This document shows positions 26,222-37,998 of a stretch of 38,374 nucleotides of DNA, in pieces. Each line of letters opens with the position of its first letter. Within the stretch, counting starts at the first letter, position 1. Source of the stretch: Nitrospiraceae bacterium (lineage in GTDB: Bacteria > Nitrospirota > Nitrospiria > Nitrospirales > Nitrospiraceae); NCBI GenBank assembly GCA_035623075.1, contig DASPUC010000011.1, positions 1 to 38,374 of the forward strand, read 5' to 3'. The notes under the pieces were generated by a model. It did not search any database, was not told the origin of the DNA, and saw only the letters and a program-made list of their open reading frames with translations. The translations under genes and the position numbers were made by a program.

Positions 26222-27829
26222 CTAGGCTCTCGGTACCAGATGGACCGCGCCGGCTTTCATCGCGGCGATCACCGAACTCCCGACATTCAGCGATAAATCT
26301 TCCAACGCCCCTCGGGTGACCATCGCCACCAAGGGAAAGCCACATTCGATCTTCACCTGCACCATGACCCCGTGCGGAATGATTTCGCTCACCTTCCCGA
26401 CAAGATGATTGCGCGCGCTCGTTATGCCACTGCCCGCTTGTTCCAACACCACATCTTCGGCTCGAATACAGACGAACACCGGCGAGCCAATTTCATCTGA
26501 TCCCAAGCCTTTGAGCGTCGTTCCATTGACGCGGACGGTGGCCAGCCCGTTTGCTTGCTCGATCACATGACCCTGTACGACGGTTTCCACTCCCACAATC
26601 TGCGCGACCTCAGCATTCTTGGGACGAGAAAACACGTCTTGTGGTGAGCCAACCTGCAACACCTGACCATTCTCCATCACCGCGATCACATCACCCAGCG
26701 TCAATGCCTCGGTCCAATCATGCGTCACGATCGTCTCAAAGAAGCTTTGCAGTGTGGGATGAGCGGCGAGATAAGCTTTGGGAACGACCAGATCATACCG
26801 AGCCTCCTGGAGCGGAACGAAGTCGAGCCCATAATAGTTTGCGGCGAAGCGCACACCGACGCCAACGTCGGCCTGCCCCTCGGAGATCAAGCGCGCCACA
26901 TGAAAGTGCGACGACGCAAGCCGGTCATAGCCCTTCACGCGGTTGGATGGCACACCGGCTGCCGATAACCTCTGATCGAGAAGAATCCGCGCACCCGCGC
27001 CCGATTCCCGATTGATGAATCGCACGTCGGGACGCGCCAGATCCGTGATTGCTCGAATACCCTTGGGGTTGCCGGCGGACACTATGAGGCCCTCTTCCCA
27101 TCGGGCGAATGTCACGATGTCCACGTCGTATCCTTTGAGATGCCGCTTCACATAGGGCAGATTCGATTCGCCCGACGTGCTATCGACAATGTGGAGACCA
27201 GCAATATGAACTTCTCCTCGTTTCAATGCCTCTAGCGCGGCGCCACTGCCCATTGTCCATCCGACCACCGTAGACGTGTTCGTATGACGCCGCAAATATT
27301 CGCCAGCGAGAAAGATGGCGGGATCGCATCCCGCTACCGCAATTTCCTGCTCGATCAAGTGACGATCTCGTATCAACTGTACCCGCACAGAGCGCGCGCC
27401 TTTGTCCGCGCGCGAGGAAGAAGTTACCGAGCCGGAAAACAATCCGTCGGCGGGAATCGCATAATTTAATACCTCACCGAGATCAGCCACCGGACGCACG
27501 ACTAAACGATTCCCGATGTGGGCCACTTTTACTCGTGCATGATGAGCGAGTGAGTCGGTGCCCAATCCGGCGATCAACTCACCCTGTACCATTTCACCGG
27601 TAGAGATGAGGCGGAAGAGGTCCTCCACGCGACAGTTGAGAACTCCTGCAAGGCGAAGCGCCACCGCAGTGGTGGGAAGATATTGATTGGCCTCGATCGC
27701 ACAGACAGCCTGCCGCGTAACCTGAGCTGATGCTGCCAAATCGCTTTGCGACAGACCCTTGGCAGTCCTCAACATCCTCAAATTATTCTCGATGTTACTT
27801 GCTGGTTCAGCGCGATGTCGCTCGCCCAT
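26222..27829 (-). CDS. XRE-HTH / PBP-like regulator fused to ModC C-terminal and TOBE domains
   Basis: 535 residues. Residues about 13-67 are an XRE HTH (LRTAKGLSQSDLAASAQVTRQAVCAIE); about 100-365 are a periplasmic-binding-protein-like substrate domain (GWTMGSGAALEALKRGEVHIAGLHIVD, FINRESGAGAR, EGQADVGVGV). From residue about 367 the sequence becomes the tail of a molybdate-type ABC ATPase: VTHDWTEALTLGD (H-loop), VLQVGSPQDVFSRP, NAEVAQIVGVE, then TOBE-like repeats to the end. No Walker A or B is present, so it cannot transport. The paralog at 36805 ends normally at 397 residues, showing where the fusion was made. Probably a molybdate- or tungstate-responsive regulator. Confidence 0.85.
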   Translation of the reverse strand: MGERHRAEPASNIENNLRMLRTAKGLSQSDLAASAQVTRQAVCAIEANQYLPTTAVALRLAGVLNCRVEDLFRLISTGEMVQGELIAGLGTDSLAHHARVKVAHIGNRLVVRPVADLGEVLNYAIPADGLFSGSVTSSSRADKGARSVRVQLIRDRHLIEQEIAVAGCDPAIFLAGEYLRRHTNTSTVVGWTMGSGAALEALKRGEVHIAGLHIVDSTSGESNLPYVKRHLKGYDVDIVTFARWEEGLIVSAGNPKGIRAITDLARPDVRFINRESGAGARILLDQRLSAAGVPSNRVKGYDRLASSHFHVARLISEGQADVGVGVRFAANYYGLDFVPLQEARYDLVVPKAYLAAHPTLQSFFETIVTHDWTEALTLGDVIAVMENGQVLQVGSPQDVFSRPKNAEVAQIVGVETVVQGHVIEQANGLATVRVNGTTLKGLGSDEIGSPVFVCIRAEDVVLEQAGSGITSARNHLVGKVSEIIPHGVMVQVKIECGFPLVAMVTRGALEDLSLNVGSSVIAAMKAGAVHLVPRA

Positions 27830-27846
27830 GCAGACCCAAATACACG

Positions 27847-27870
27847 TATACTTTCATAATGTCAAGTATA
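27847..27870. promoter_or_regulatory. TATACTT-N10-AAGTATA operator with TTGACA promoter
   Basis: A perfect 7-bp inverted repeat, TATACTT (27847-27853) and AAGTATA (27864-27870), lies 18 bases upstream of the regulator's ATG. On the minus strand it overlaps a TTGACA hexamer. An imperfect version sits in the promoter of the paralog at 36763-36786, in the same position relative to the start, which argues for autoregulation by the family. Confidence 0.6.
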
Positions 27871-28068: not shown

Positions 28069-28431
28069 CTAAGAACTTTGATTGTGCTGTAAGGGTCGAT
28101 GGTTTCCACAGCCCTGTAAGGGGTTCAGAGAAAATTGCAATTGAAGGAAGCCCCCGGAGGACCGGAGGCCTCCCATTGAAGCGGCGCAGTGCTTCAAGGC
28201 ATGGGCCTCAATCCACTCCTTCGATCCACGCGCGACGCTGATCAGGGCCTCGAGGTCGTTGAGACCGAACGAGGTGCCGTTGCGCCATTCACCGGACTGA
28301 TCCTCGAACGGCCGAGAGAAAGTCGTCGCGAAGAACGGTCCTTTCTCGCCGACGTTCTCCCAGATCGTGGCCTTGATGTTGCCGCATCGCAGTGTGTTTA
28401 CCGGTTGTTTGGATGGTTTTCTGGCAGCCAT
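28069..28431 (-). CDS. Small conserved element-associated protein, copy 1 (intact)
   Basis: 120 residues. AAAGGAGG before the ATG at 28431 fixes the start; the longer frame to 28662 runs through the tRNA-like remnant. The core NTLRCGNIKATIWENVGEKGPFFATTFSRPFEDQSGEWRNGTSFGLNDLEALISVA is a small conserved protein that I have seen near mobile elements; the remainder after ALKH (residue about 80) is probably an extension that covers a GGAAGCC-type hairpin. Function unknown. A frameshifted second copy is at 32158-32437. Confidence 0.65.
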   Translation of the reverse strand: MAARKPSKQPVNTLRCGNIKATIWENVGEKGPFFATTFSRPFEDQSGEWRNGTSFGLNDLEALISVARGSKEWIEAHALKHCAASMGGLRSSGGFLQLQFSLNPLQGCGNHRPLQHNQSS

Positions 28432-28621
28432 CTTGTTTCCTCCTTTGGTTTGAAATGAAGGTGGCTCTCTCACGAGAACTAGAGCGCCAACGCACAGTTC
28501 AAGGAGGAAACACGAGGCAAGTGCCGGTGCAGGCGGAGCGGAGAGGATCAAGCAGCGGGAGTGACGGGGGCCTGGCGCGAGCGGTGCGCCTCGCAGGTAT
28601 TGGCCGGTTGGACACTGCTGG

Positions 28622-28660
28622 GAGGTGGCGGAGCTCAATCGACAGAGCAGCGGCTTTGCC
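28622..28660 (+). other. Degenerate tRNA 5' half-like sequence
   Basis: GGAGCTCAATCGACAGAGC plus the following CGGCTTTGCC have the shape of acceptor strand, D-arm and 5' anticodon stem, but the D-loop lacks GG, position 8 is not T and the 3' half is absent. Its translation RWRSSIDRAAAL is the kind of peptide read from tRNA 5' halves. Its place, between a DUF gene and repeat copy B, equals that of the tRNA-Arg half at 32725-32766. A decayed attachment site is the likely reading. Confidence 0.4.
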
Positions 28661-28670
28661 ATCTACTTGG

Positions 28671-29791: not shown

Positions 29792-29967
29792 CCGTAGGTC
29801 GTCGCGAAGTGTCGAAGCCAGGCGCCACTGACAATTCAGCGCGCAGCCATTCGATCACGATGCGACGGTAGTGCATATGCTCCTTCAGCGTAAGCTGTTT
29901 CGTGCCCCAAGACAAATGTAGAGAGCCTTCGCCTGGCTCAGCGTGTCGGCCGCACAAAGGAGCCATC

Positions 29968-30231
29968 ATGGGCAAACGAGTCCTGTATGTCGGCGGTCTT
30001 TCGGAGACGATCTCAGACAGGGACCTCCTAAACCTCTTTGGATCCTATGGGGTCGTCGCCCGTGCCTATATCGTTCGGCATAAGCACACTGGCAAATCGG
30101 CCGGCTATGGATTTGTGGAAATGGGCTCCGGCGAACAAGCCCTTCATGCCGTGGTGGCTCTTGAAGGCGCACTAGTTGACGGCAACCGTCTGAGGCTGTA
30201 TGTCACGCCCTACGTAGCTGCCAACTCATAA
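29968..30231 (+). CDS. RRM-type RNA-binding protein
   Basis: 87 residues, one RNA recognition motif. RNP2 is VLYVGGL (residues 5-11) and RNP1 is SAGYGFVEM (about 47-55), with the usual beta-alpha-beta spacing. AAAGGAG precedes the ATG at 29968. It lacks the Gly-rich tail of the second RRM gene. It would bind single-stranded RNA, perhaps as a cold-inducible chaperone. Its stop TAA overlaps a potential next ATG at 30231, but the next gene more likely begins at 30261. Confidence 0.88.
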   Translation: MGKRVLYVGGLSETISDRDLLNLFGSYGVVARAYIVRHKHTGKSAGYGFVEMGSGEQALHAVVALEGALVDGNRLRLYVTPYVAANS

Positions 30232-31586: not shown

Positions 31587-31910
31587 ATGGGTACAAAACT
31601 GTATGTCGGCGGCTTGCCCTACTCGGCGACCGAAACGCAACTCACCACCTTGTTCGCTACACACGGCACCGTTGAATCGGCACGGGTGATCGCAGACAAG
31701 TTCACGGGACAGTCCCGAGGATTCGGCTTTGTGGAGATGTCCACATCGGAGGAGGCTCAGGCGGCCATTAGCGCTTTGAACGGCTCTCAGATGGATGGTC
31801 GATCTCTGACCGTGAACGAAGCCAAGCCTCAGACACCCCGTTCCGGTGGCGGCGGTCGGTTCGGCAACGGAGGACGCGGCAACGATTTCGGCAGTCGGAA
31901 TCGATTCTAA
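31587..31910 (+). CDS. RRM-type RNA-binding protein with Gly-rich tail
   Basis: 107 residues. RNP2 is LYVGGLPYSA (residues 5-14) and RNP1 is RGFGFVEM (about 44-51), an excellent RRM. Residues 82-107 are Gly/Arg/Asn-rich (GGGGRFGNGGRGNDF), as in cyanobacterial Rbp and plant GRP proteins, which are cold-induced RNA chaperones. AAAGGAGG precedes the ATG. A structured 5' leader and a strong downstream terminator make it a monocistronic unit. Confidence 0.92.
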   Translation: MGTKLYVGGLPYSATETQLTTLFATHGTVESARVIADKFTGQSRGFGFVEMSTSEEAQAAISALNGSQMDGRSLTVNEAKPQTPRSGGGGRFGNGGRGNDFGSRNRF

Positions 31911-32157: not shown

Positions 32158-32437
32158 GGGAAGCCCCCGGAGGGCCGGAGGCTTCCCATTGAAGCGGCGC
32201 AGTGCTTCAAGGCATGAGCCTCAATCCACTCCTTCGCTCCAAGCGCGACGTTGATCAGGGCCTCGAGGTCGTTGAGACCGAACGAGGTGCCGTTGCGCCA
32301 TTCACCGGACTGATTTTTGAACGGCCGAGAGAAGGTCGTTGTGAAGAACGGGCCTTTCTCGCCGGCATTCTCCCAGATCGTGGCCTTGATGTTGCCGGAT
32401 CGGAGTGTATGAGTGGGGATCCTTTTGGGGTCGCCAT
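32158..32437 (-). pseudogene. Small conserved element-associated protein, copy 2 (frameshifted)
   Basis: The minus strand repeats the 28069-28431 gene: SGNIKATIWENAGEKGPFF, then FSRPF and WRNGTSFGLNDLEAL. The ATG at 32437, with AAGGAG before it, reads MATPKGSPLIHSDPATS and is one base out of frame with this core; the core frame itself has no start codon. A one-base loss near 32405-32425 has therefore broken the N-terminus. Downstream the terminator-like GGAAGCC hairpin is kept. Confidence 0.7.
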
Positions 32438-36762: not shown

Positions 36763-36786
36763 TATACTTGACAATATGTAAGCTAT
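36763..36786. promoter_or_regulatory. Conserved promoter and imperfect operator of the regulator paralog
   Basis: TATACTT (36763-36769) and AAGCTAT (36780-36786) with a 10-base spacer form an imperfect version of the inverted repeat at 27847-27870. TTGACA at 36768-36773 overlaps it. The segment TTTATACTTGACA-TATG-AAG is shared with the other regulator promoter, which is diverged elsewhere, so it appears to be under selection. Confidence 0.55.
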
Positions 36787-36804
36787 CCATGTATCGAGTC
36801 ATAC

Positions 36805-37998
36805 ATGGGAGAACGCCATCGCGCTGAACCTGTCAGCAACATCGAAAATAACTTGAAAGTGCTCAGATCTGCTAAAGGCTTGTCACAAAGCGACTTGGCC
36901 GCATCGGCTCAGATTACGCGTCAGGCGGTATGTGCGATCGAAGGAAATCACTATCTTCCGACGACAGCGGTGGCCCTACGGTTGGCAGGAGTCCTTGGCT
37001 GTCGGGTAGAAGATTTGTTTAATCTGCGAGCAACCGGTGAAATCATCAGCGGTGAATACATTGGTGAGCAGGATCAACCCGATGGTGTTCATACTCCGAT
37101 ACGAGTCAAGGTGGCGCGCGTCGAAGACCGCTATGTGGTTCGACCAGTGAGAGCATTGGGTGAACTGCTCGCGTATACGGTTCCGGCCGATGGGTTGATT
37201 GTTGGCGGCGAACAAGATGTAAAAGTTCGGGACAAGCCGAACAAGCGAATCCAAGTCCAACTTCTCAGGGATCGCCGTATCATTGAGCAAGAGATTGCCA
37301 TTGCTGGATGTGATCCGGCGGTTTTTCTTGCCGGGGAATACCTTCGACGGTACAAAGAAACGGCCACAGTGACTGGATGGACGATGGGTAGCAGCGCAGC
37401 GCTCGAGTCGTTGAAGCGACGCGAAGTCCATATAGCCGGTCTCCATATCGTGGATGAGAAAACAGGCGAATCCAACATTCCATACCTGCGCAAGCACTTG
37501 CGAGGAGATGACTACCTCATTGTGACGTTTGCTGCATGGGAAGAGGGATTAATCGTACGCCGTGGAAATCCTAAGGAGATTCGCAGAATCGAGGATCTTG
37601 GCCGTAAGGGCGTAACGCTCATTAACCGGGAGGAGGGAGCTGGGGCGAGGCATCTGTTGGATCAACGGCTTGAACAAGGAGGACTACATCGGCGTGACGT
37701 CCGAGGGTACGACATGATTGCCGAGTCACATTTTCAAGTCGCCCGCCGTATTGCAGAAGGTCAAGCAGATGTCGGGGTAGGTGTTCGATCAGCGGCGAAT
37801 CTCTTCGGTTTAGGATTTGTTTCGTTGCAACAGTCTCGCTATGATCTGGTCGTGCCCAAGCCCTATTTAACAGCCCATCCCAGCATCGGCAACCTTCTTG
37901 AAGCGATCGTCAGTCGCCAATTTCGCACGGAGATTGAGGCGCTGGGTGGCTACGACACGACCGAAACTGGAAAGATCCGACAGCTCAAGCCACAATAG
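36805..37998 (+). CDS. XRE-HTH / PBP-like (molybdate-type) transcriptional regulator
   Basis: 397 residues. An N-terminal XRE HTH (LRSAKGLSQSDLAASAQITRQAVCAIE, about 19-45) is followed by a PBP_like domain with GWTMGSSAALESLKRREVHIAGLHIVD, LINREEGAGARHLLDQR and EGQADVGVGV, ending EALGGYDTTETGKIRQL. This is the architecture of regulators that sense molybdate or tungstate. It is a close paralog of the 26222-27829 protein, whose last 30 residues of this domain are replaced by a ModC/TOBE tail. The pair lies in opposite orientation 9 kb apart. The start at 36805 is the conserved MGERHRAEP. Confidence 0.88.
   Translation: MGERHRAEPVSNIENNLKVLRSAKGLSQSDLAASAQITRQAVCAIEGNHYLPTTAVALRLAGVLGCRVEDLFNLRATGEIISGEYIGEQDQPDGVHTPIRVKVARVEDRYVVRPVRALGELLAYTVPADGLIVGGEQDVKVRDKPNKRIQVQLLRDRRIIEQEIAIAGCDPAVFLAGEYLRRYKETATVTGWTMGSSAALESLKRREVHIAGLHIVDEKTGESNIPYLRKHLRGDDYLIVTFAAWEEGLIVRRGNPKEIRRIEDLGRKGVTLINREEGAGARHLLDQRLEQGGLHRRDVRGYDMIAESHFQVARRIAEGQADVGVGVRSAANLFGLGFVSLQQSRYDLVVPKPYLTAHPSIGNLLEAIVSRQFRTEIEALGGYDTTETGKIRQLKPQ

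Follow-up and report, generated by a model that had tools for sequence, protein, structure and literature searches.

We propose that a gene in a Nitrospiraceae bacterium is a deletion-born chimera, in which the start of an operon's regulatory gene was joined to the end of the same operon's modC gene (we put the probability of this origin at roughly 0.88). The gene (26222..27829, minus strand) lies in a window of 38,374 nucleotides that is the whole of contig C11 from a 3.39 Mb assembly (58 contigs, 99.9% complete). It is predicted to encode a protein of 535 amino acids with an XRE helix-turn-helix (HTH), a linker domain, a PBP_like domain, and the C-terminal third of a ModC protein including its TOBE domain. 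The reading frame contains no internal stops and no frameshifts.

The regulatory half is clear from Pfam. The DNA-binding domain is of the XRE/HTH_3 type (residues 17-71; 27617..27781, minus strand; PF01381, E = 1.1e-9), with further matches to HTH_31 and HTH_26 and none to HTH_17. The periplasmic-binding-protein-like ligand domain (PBP_like; residues 178-367; 26729..27298, minus strand; PF12727, E = 2.1e-61) matches its profile up to position 192 of 193. Next comes a remnant of an ABC nucleotide-binding domain, past the H-loop (THDW..., residues 369-414; 26588..26725, minus strand), and then a TOBE domain (residues 470-531; 26237..26422, minus strand; PF03459, E = 2e-12), for which phmmer finds 3d31, ModG (1h9j), and Tub (9beb). 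The NCBIfam models for WtpC and ModC match residues 367-531 from profile position ~186 to 352, which is only the last ~45% of the models, and the same residues (~367-531) align with residues 184-347 of the 348 in the solved ModC chain 3d31. The C-terminal end of these ABC ATPases, TOBE included, thus corresponds to residues ~367-532 of the fusion. ModC and WtpC have an ATP-binding core, whereas the fusion has no Pfam match to ABC_tran, and the Walker A, Q-loop, signature, and Walker B motifs are all missing, so the fusion protein is not an ATPase.

A preliminary description of this DNA had recognized a regulator that runs in frame, at the H-loop, into the end of ModC, and had noted that the N-terminal ATPase parts are missing. 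Both points hold: the domain and profile matches are far beyond chance, and there is no ABC_tran match and no WtpC/ModC match before profile position ~186. Its "TOBE-type repeats", in contrast, are a single TOBE domain (PF03459, overlapped by PF08402).

The presumed parents of the fusion are intact in related bacteria. In at least 26 of 36 genomes from the same family (a count made from coordinates, among the matches listed), the regulator and an intact ModC of ~400 amino acids are on the same contig and strand, with the regulator 3.1-8.3 kb upstream. The closest relative of the regulatory half (locus L037/L056, 82% identity) has this same layout, and Pfam identifies SBP_bac_11, Porin_O_P, and a BPD_transp_1 permease at L056. 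In the two operons that we read throughout (L059 and L061), the genes nearly abut, and their order is regulator, substrate-binding protein (SBP), lipoprotein, porin, ModA, a 109-amino-acid protein, ModB, and ModC. Because the regulator opens the operon and modC closes it, the fusion consists of the first gene's start and the last gene's end.

The joint itself is consistent with a single deletion. When compared to L056 with blastn, the fusion gene gives two collinear pieces: nucleotides 19-1105 match the regulator (78% identity) and nucleotides 1099-1599 match modC (73%). The pieces overlap by 7 nucleotides (1099-1105), which correspond to the word ATCGTGA (26725..26731, minus strand) in codons I367-V368-T369, where the ModC-type part begins. 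L056 has ATTGTGA at both parental sites, 7,714 bp apart, so one deletion between short direct repeats explains the fusion. Across the joint, the fusion reads GAG ACG ATC GTG ACG CAT GAT TGG; close relatives of the regulator have ACG ATT GTG ATG and relatives of ModC have ATT/ATC GTG/GTC ACC/ACG CAC GAT/GAC TGG. The 7-nucleotide repeat is read from these relatives rather than from the true ancestor, and it could have been shorter, since the ModC codons at L059 are ATC GTC ACG. The preliminary description had placed the joint where both parents have a short similar sequence, and a shared word does exist, but it is ATCGTGA and not the EAIVS/VTHDW that had been suggested. The chance that such a joining is in frame is one in three. 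On either side of the gene, the DNA has no match to L056.

These observations suggest the following history. In the ancestor, a regulator with XRE and PBP_like domains would have headed a molybdate/tungstate uptake operon with the order regulator, SBP, lipoprotein, porin, ModA, small lipoprotein, ModB, and ModC. Illegitimate recombination at the ~7-bp direct repeat AT[C/T]GTGA would then have cut out several kilobases, bringing codon ~368 of the regulator next to, and in frame with, the H-loop threonine of modC. Comparison with the relatives shows that the regulator's promoter and the native stop codon of modC were retained.

With a full ModC as the query, the fusion's tail is 76% identical and all other matches in the genome are at 27-41%. 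The best matches for the operon's SBP and ModB are at 32% and 49%. In sum, the rest of the operon, including the first two thirds of the ATPase, has no ortholog-level match in this near-complete genome. Copies of the porin (60%) and the lipoprotein (49%) are present on contig C25. In two other genomes (G032 and G096), orthologs of a second regulator in the window, the paralog described below, adjoin a similar porin/lipoprotein pair; C11 stops just after the paralog and C25 stops just after the porin (L081:10664-12517), so we attribute this pair to the paralog's locus. Comparison with G032 and G096 also indicates that the end of C11 (38374) and the end of C25 are probably joined tail to tail. 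Contig C12 carries a separate set of ModA, ModB, and ModC, along with a Mop-like ORF and an HTH_17-TOBE protein. Molybdate is therefore probably still taken up, by a different transporter. The HTH_17-TOBE protein (145 amino acids, L069:13471-13908) adjoins the second modABC and is possibly a one-TOBE ModE-like regulator that serves as a functional replacement.

The paralog (36805..37998, plus strand; 397 amino acids; XRE and PBP_like) ends normally (...ALGGYDTTETGKIRQLKPQ), as had been stated in the preliminary description. The recognition region of its HTH is nearly identical to that of the fusion. We considered whether the regulatory half of the fusion might descend from this paralog, but this is ruled out by the tree and by the identities: the paralog is 65% identical to the regulatory half, and the regulators in the L037, L038, and G181 genomes are 80-82% identical. 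By name, the relatives nearest to the regulatory half are "Nitrospira sp. palsa_1310" and further Nitrospirae MAGs. Intact XRE and PBP_like (PF12727) proteins of the Nitrospiraceae, including the paralog, resemble residues 1-368 of the fusion (55-82% identity). In contrast to the fusion, they end with the motif GGYD and at least ~10 more residues, ~30 residues past the joint, and they have no TOBE domain. GGYD is lost in the fusion and kept in 23 of the 23 intact orthologs that we examined.

The two halves have different nearest relatives. In the tree of the regulatory half, the fusion is sister to L056/L073/L038 (support 100/100), and in the tree of the tail, it is sister to the ModC of G005 (95/94). 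Because the trees disagree, the ancestral operon was not exactly that of any genome we have seen. It is possible that recombination between operon copies, or mosaicism of the operon, preceded the deletion. Discordance between the nearest relatives of regulators and ModCs is seen across the Nitrospiraceae, which hints that operon heads have been swapped between lineages.

Upstream of the fusion is a conserved promoter-like element (27837..27865, minus strand), which we identified by its similarity to the consensus and by comparing upstream regions: TTGACA (27860-27865) is followed 17 nucleotides downstream by TATTTG (27837-27842). As in many orthologs, the TTGACA lies within TATACTTGACA. A palindrome in this region, TATACTT-N10-AAGTATA, was rejected as an operator: it occurs once in the genome (with up to 3 mismatches), and this form is not common to the paralog or to most orthologs. 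What is general is the TATACTTGACA part alone, which we read as the -35 region. The TAT box is only ~7 nucleotides before the ATG in both the fusion (27829-27865) and the paralog (36770-36805), which would suggest that the mRNA is leaderless or that translation truly begins farther downstream.

Farther upstream, in a region of small ORFs, there is a 250-nucleotide direct repeat (28146-28395 and 32159-32408, 93% identical). Two more copies (87% and 84%) flank the mod locus on C12 (L069:11537-11786 and 588-837), and this is possibly a mobile or repeat element. An ORF of 197 amino acids (28069-28662) overlaps the repeat and has no match in Pfam. Two small ORFs (29902-30231, KRVLYVGGL..., and 31587-31910, TKLYVGGLPY...) resemble RNA recognition motifs by eye.

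The fusion appears to be specific to one lineage. We found no other case of the regulator and the tail in one gene among 175 genomes from the family, among 395 genomes from the phylum, or among 72,556 plasmid records (none of which covers 80% of the query). A few genomes have matches past residue 400, which are read-throughs with internal stops, and none of these reaches the TOBE domain. The preliminary description had held that a lack of the C-terminal module in homologs would count against it, and the module is indeed absent from all of the homologs that we examined; this shows a lineage-specific origin and not an unreal gene.

To ask how the tail has evolved, we fit a codon model to nine sequences with our own script and a fixed tree. 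On the fusion's branch, omega was 0.019 (values up to about 0.05 were within 1.92 lnL), and the background was 0.104. An omega of 1 on this branch was worse by 13.4 lnL. If the final stretch of the branch is made neutral, 5% costs 2.2 lnL and 10% costs 5.9 lnL, while a neutral final 1-2% fits no worse than none. Among the 63 columns that are invariant across 13 intact ModCs, the tail keeps 62, and the sole change is D493E. For the regulatory half, omega on the fusion's branch was 0.11 and the background was 0.064, which is not a significant difference. Branches leading to intact genes are equally low (0.02 for the paralog's regulator and 0.034 for the tail of L059), and synonymous distances in these comparisons are large. 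This strict conservation means that the tail cannot have gone unconstrained for any appreciable period: the fusion must be recent, or its tail must still be in use.

If the fusion is recent, it may be a non-functional scar from the loss of a redundant molybdate operon, with a product that is misfolded or a residual DNA-binding protein and that is on its way out. We consider the chances of this to be about even. It would explain why the fusion is known from just one of the genomes searched and why its PBP domain could do without the otherwise invariant GGYD. It also fits with the 46-residue piece of the ATPase core that is left without its partner strands, and with the codon model, in which a neutral final 1-2% of the tail's branch fits no worse than none. 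Regulation could be carried by the paralog and by the HTH-TOBE protein on C12. On the other hand, the ORF is open through to modC's own stop, the promoter element is retained, and neither half has an excess of amino acid changes (omega for the regulatory half does not differ significantly from background).

That the fusion protein is a working, selected regulator is a tentative reading. DNA binding by an XRE dimer has most likely been retained. The preliminary description had suggested that the tail adds a second oxyanion site, as in ModE. In Tub, the TOBE residues that hold the oxyanion are Ser4, Arg6, Ser40, Lys60, and Ala61, and oxyanion binding requires a TOBE dimer (PMC11980592). In the phmmer alignment, the equivalents in the fusion are S471, R473, T505, K525, and A526, so these conserved positions are compatible with a second site. 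The XRE dimer could supply the pair of TOBE domains, which could hold an oxyanion beside the PBP site, and dual-site sensing of molybdate is plausible. ModE and the fusion both have a DNA-binding domain and TOBE in one protein, but ModE has HTH_9 (as it is termed in PMC11980592) and two TOBE domains and lacks a PBP domain, while the fusion has XRE, PBP-like, and one TOBE. A ModE-type winged HTH is absent from the fusion (Pfam finds the HTH_3 type only, and none of the 25 NCBIfam matches listed is to a ModE model).

"TaoR-like" proteins, which combine HTH_17, PBP-like, and TOBE (PMC11980592), are another parallel, in that the fusion has the same three kinds of domains (HTH, PBP-like, and TOBE). 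Since this combination is already known, the architecture of the fusion is not new in kind. It differs in having an XRE/HTH_3 domain instead of HTH_17 and a remnant of the ModC nucleotide-binding domain between PBP and TOBE, and in its probable origin by deletion in one lineage. A selected sensor, TaoR-like or ModE-like and made de novo, whose TOBE adds a second site for molybdate or tungstate, would account for the retained ligand positions and for the low omega of the tail. However, the low omega may date from before the fusion, as the branches for intact genes are similar, and the gene is seen in one genome. We regard this sensor as a minority possibility. Alternatively, loss of the GGYD tail may have weakened the original PBP sensor. 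An AlphaFold2 model of the fusion (from five sequences) had a pLDDT of 43.5, which is too poor to judge.

We also considered whether the fusion might be a chimera created during assembly. The contig is derived from a metagenome, the draft is in 58 contigs, and no second genome has the fusion. The word length that assemblers usually use is far above 7 nucleotides, and the overlap at the joint falls far short of it. Also, the halves are in frame, and the 5' part of this modC, its SBP, and its ModB are not found elsewhere in the assembly, so we think that an artifact is quite improbable. That the gene belongs to an ancient, conserved family of fusions can be dismissed, as there were no other cases among the 175 family genomes or the 395 phylum genomes and none of the plasmid records reaches 80% coverage of the query.

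Returning to the deletion-born chimera, we think it unlikely, but worth considering, that the whole sequence of events took place: that one microhomology deletion collapsed the operon into a single selected gene, which became a new dual-ligand sensor of molybdate and tungstate, built from the operon's regulator and the sensory domain of its transporter, and so a natural and recent case of the birth of a TaoR-like regulator. In any case, the fusion is an example of a single step that builds a multi-domain regulator out of an operon's two ends, and its parents are intact in relatives. If it is functional, then it would illustrate how regulators with TOBE domains, the TaoR-like proteins among them, can arise, and the parent, the paralog, and the fusion would be a simple system for studying the effect of TOBE on metal sensing.
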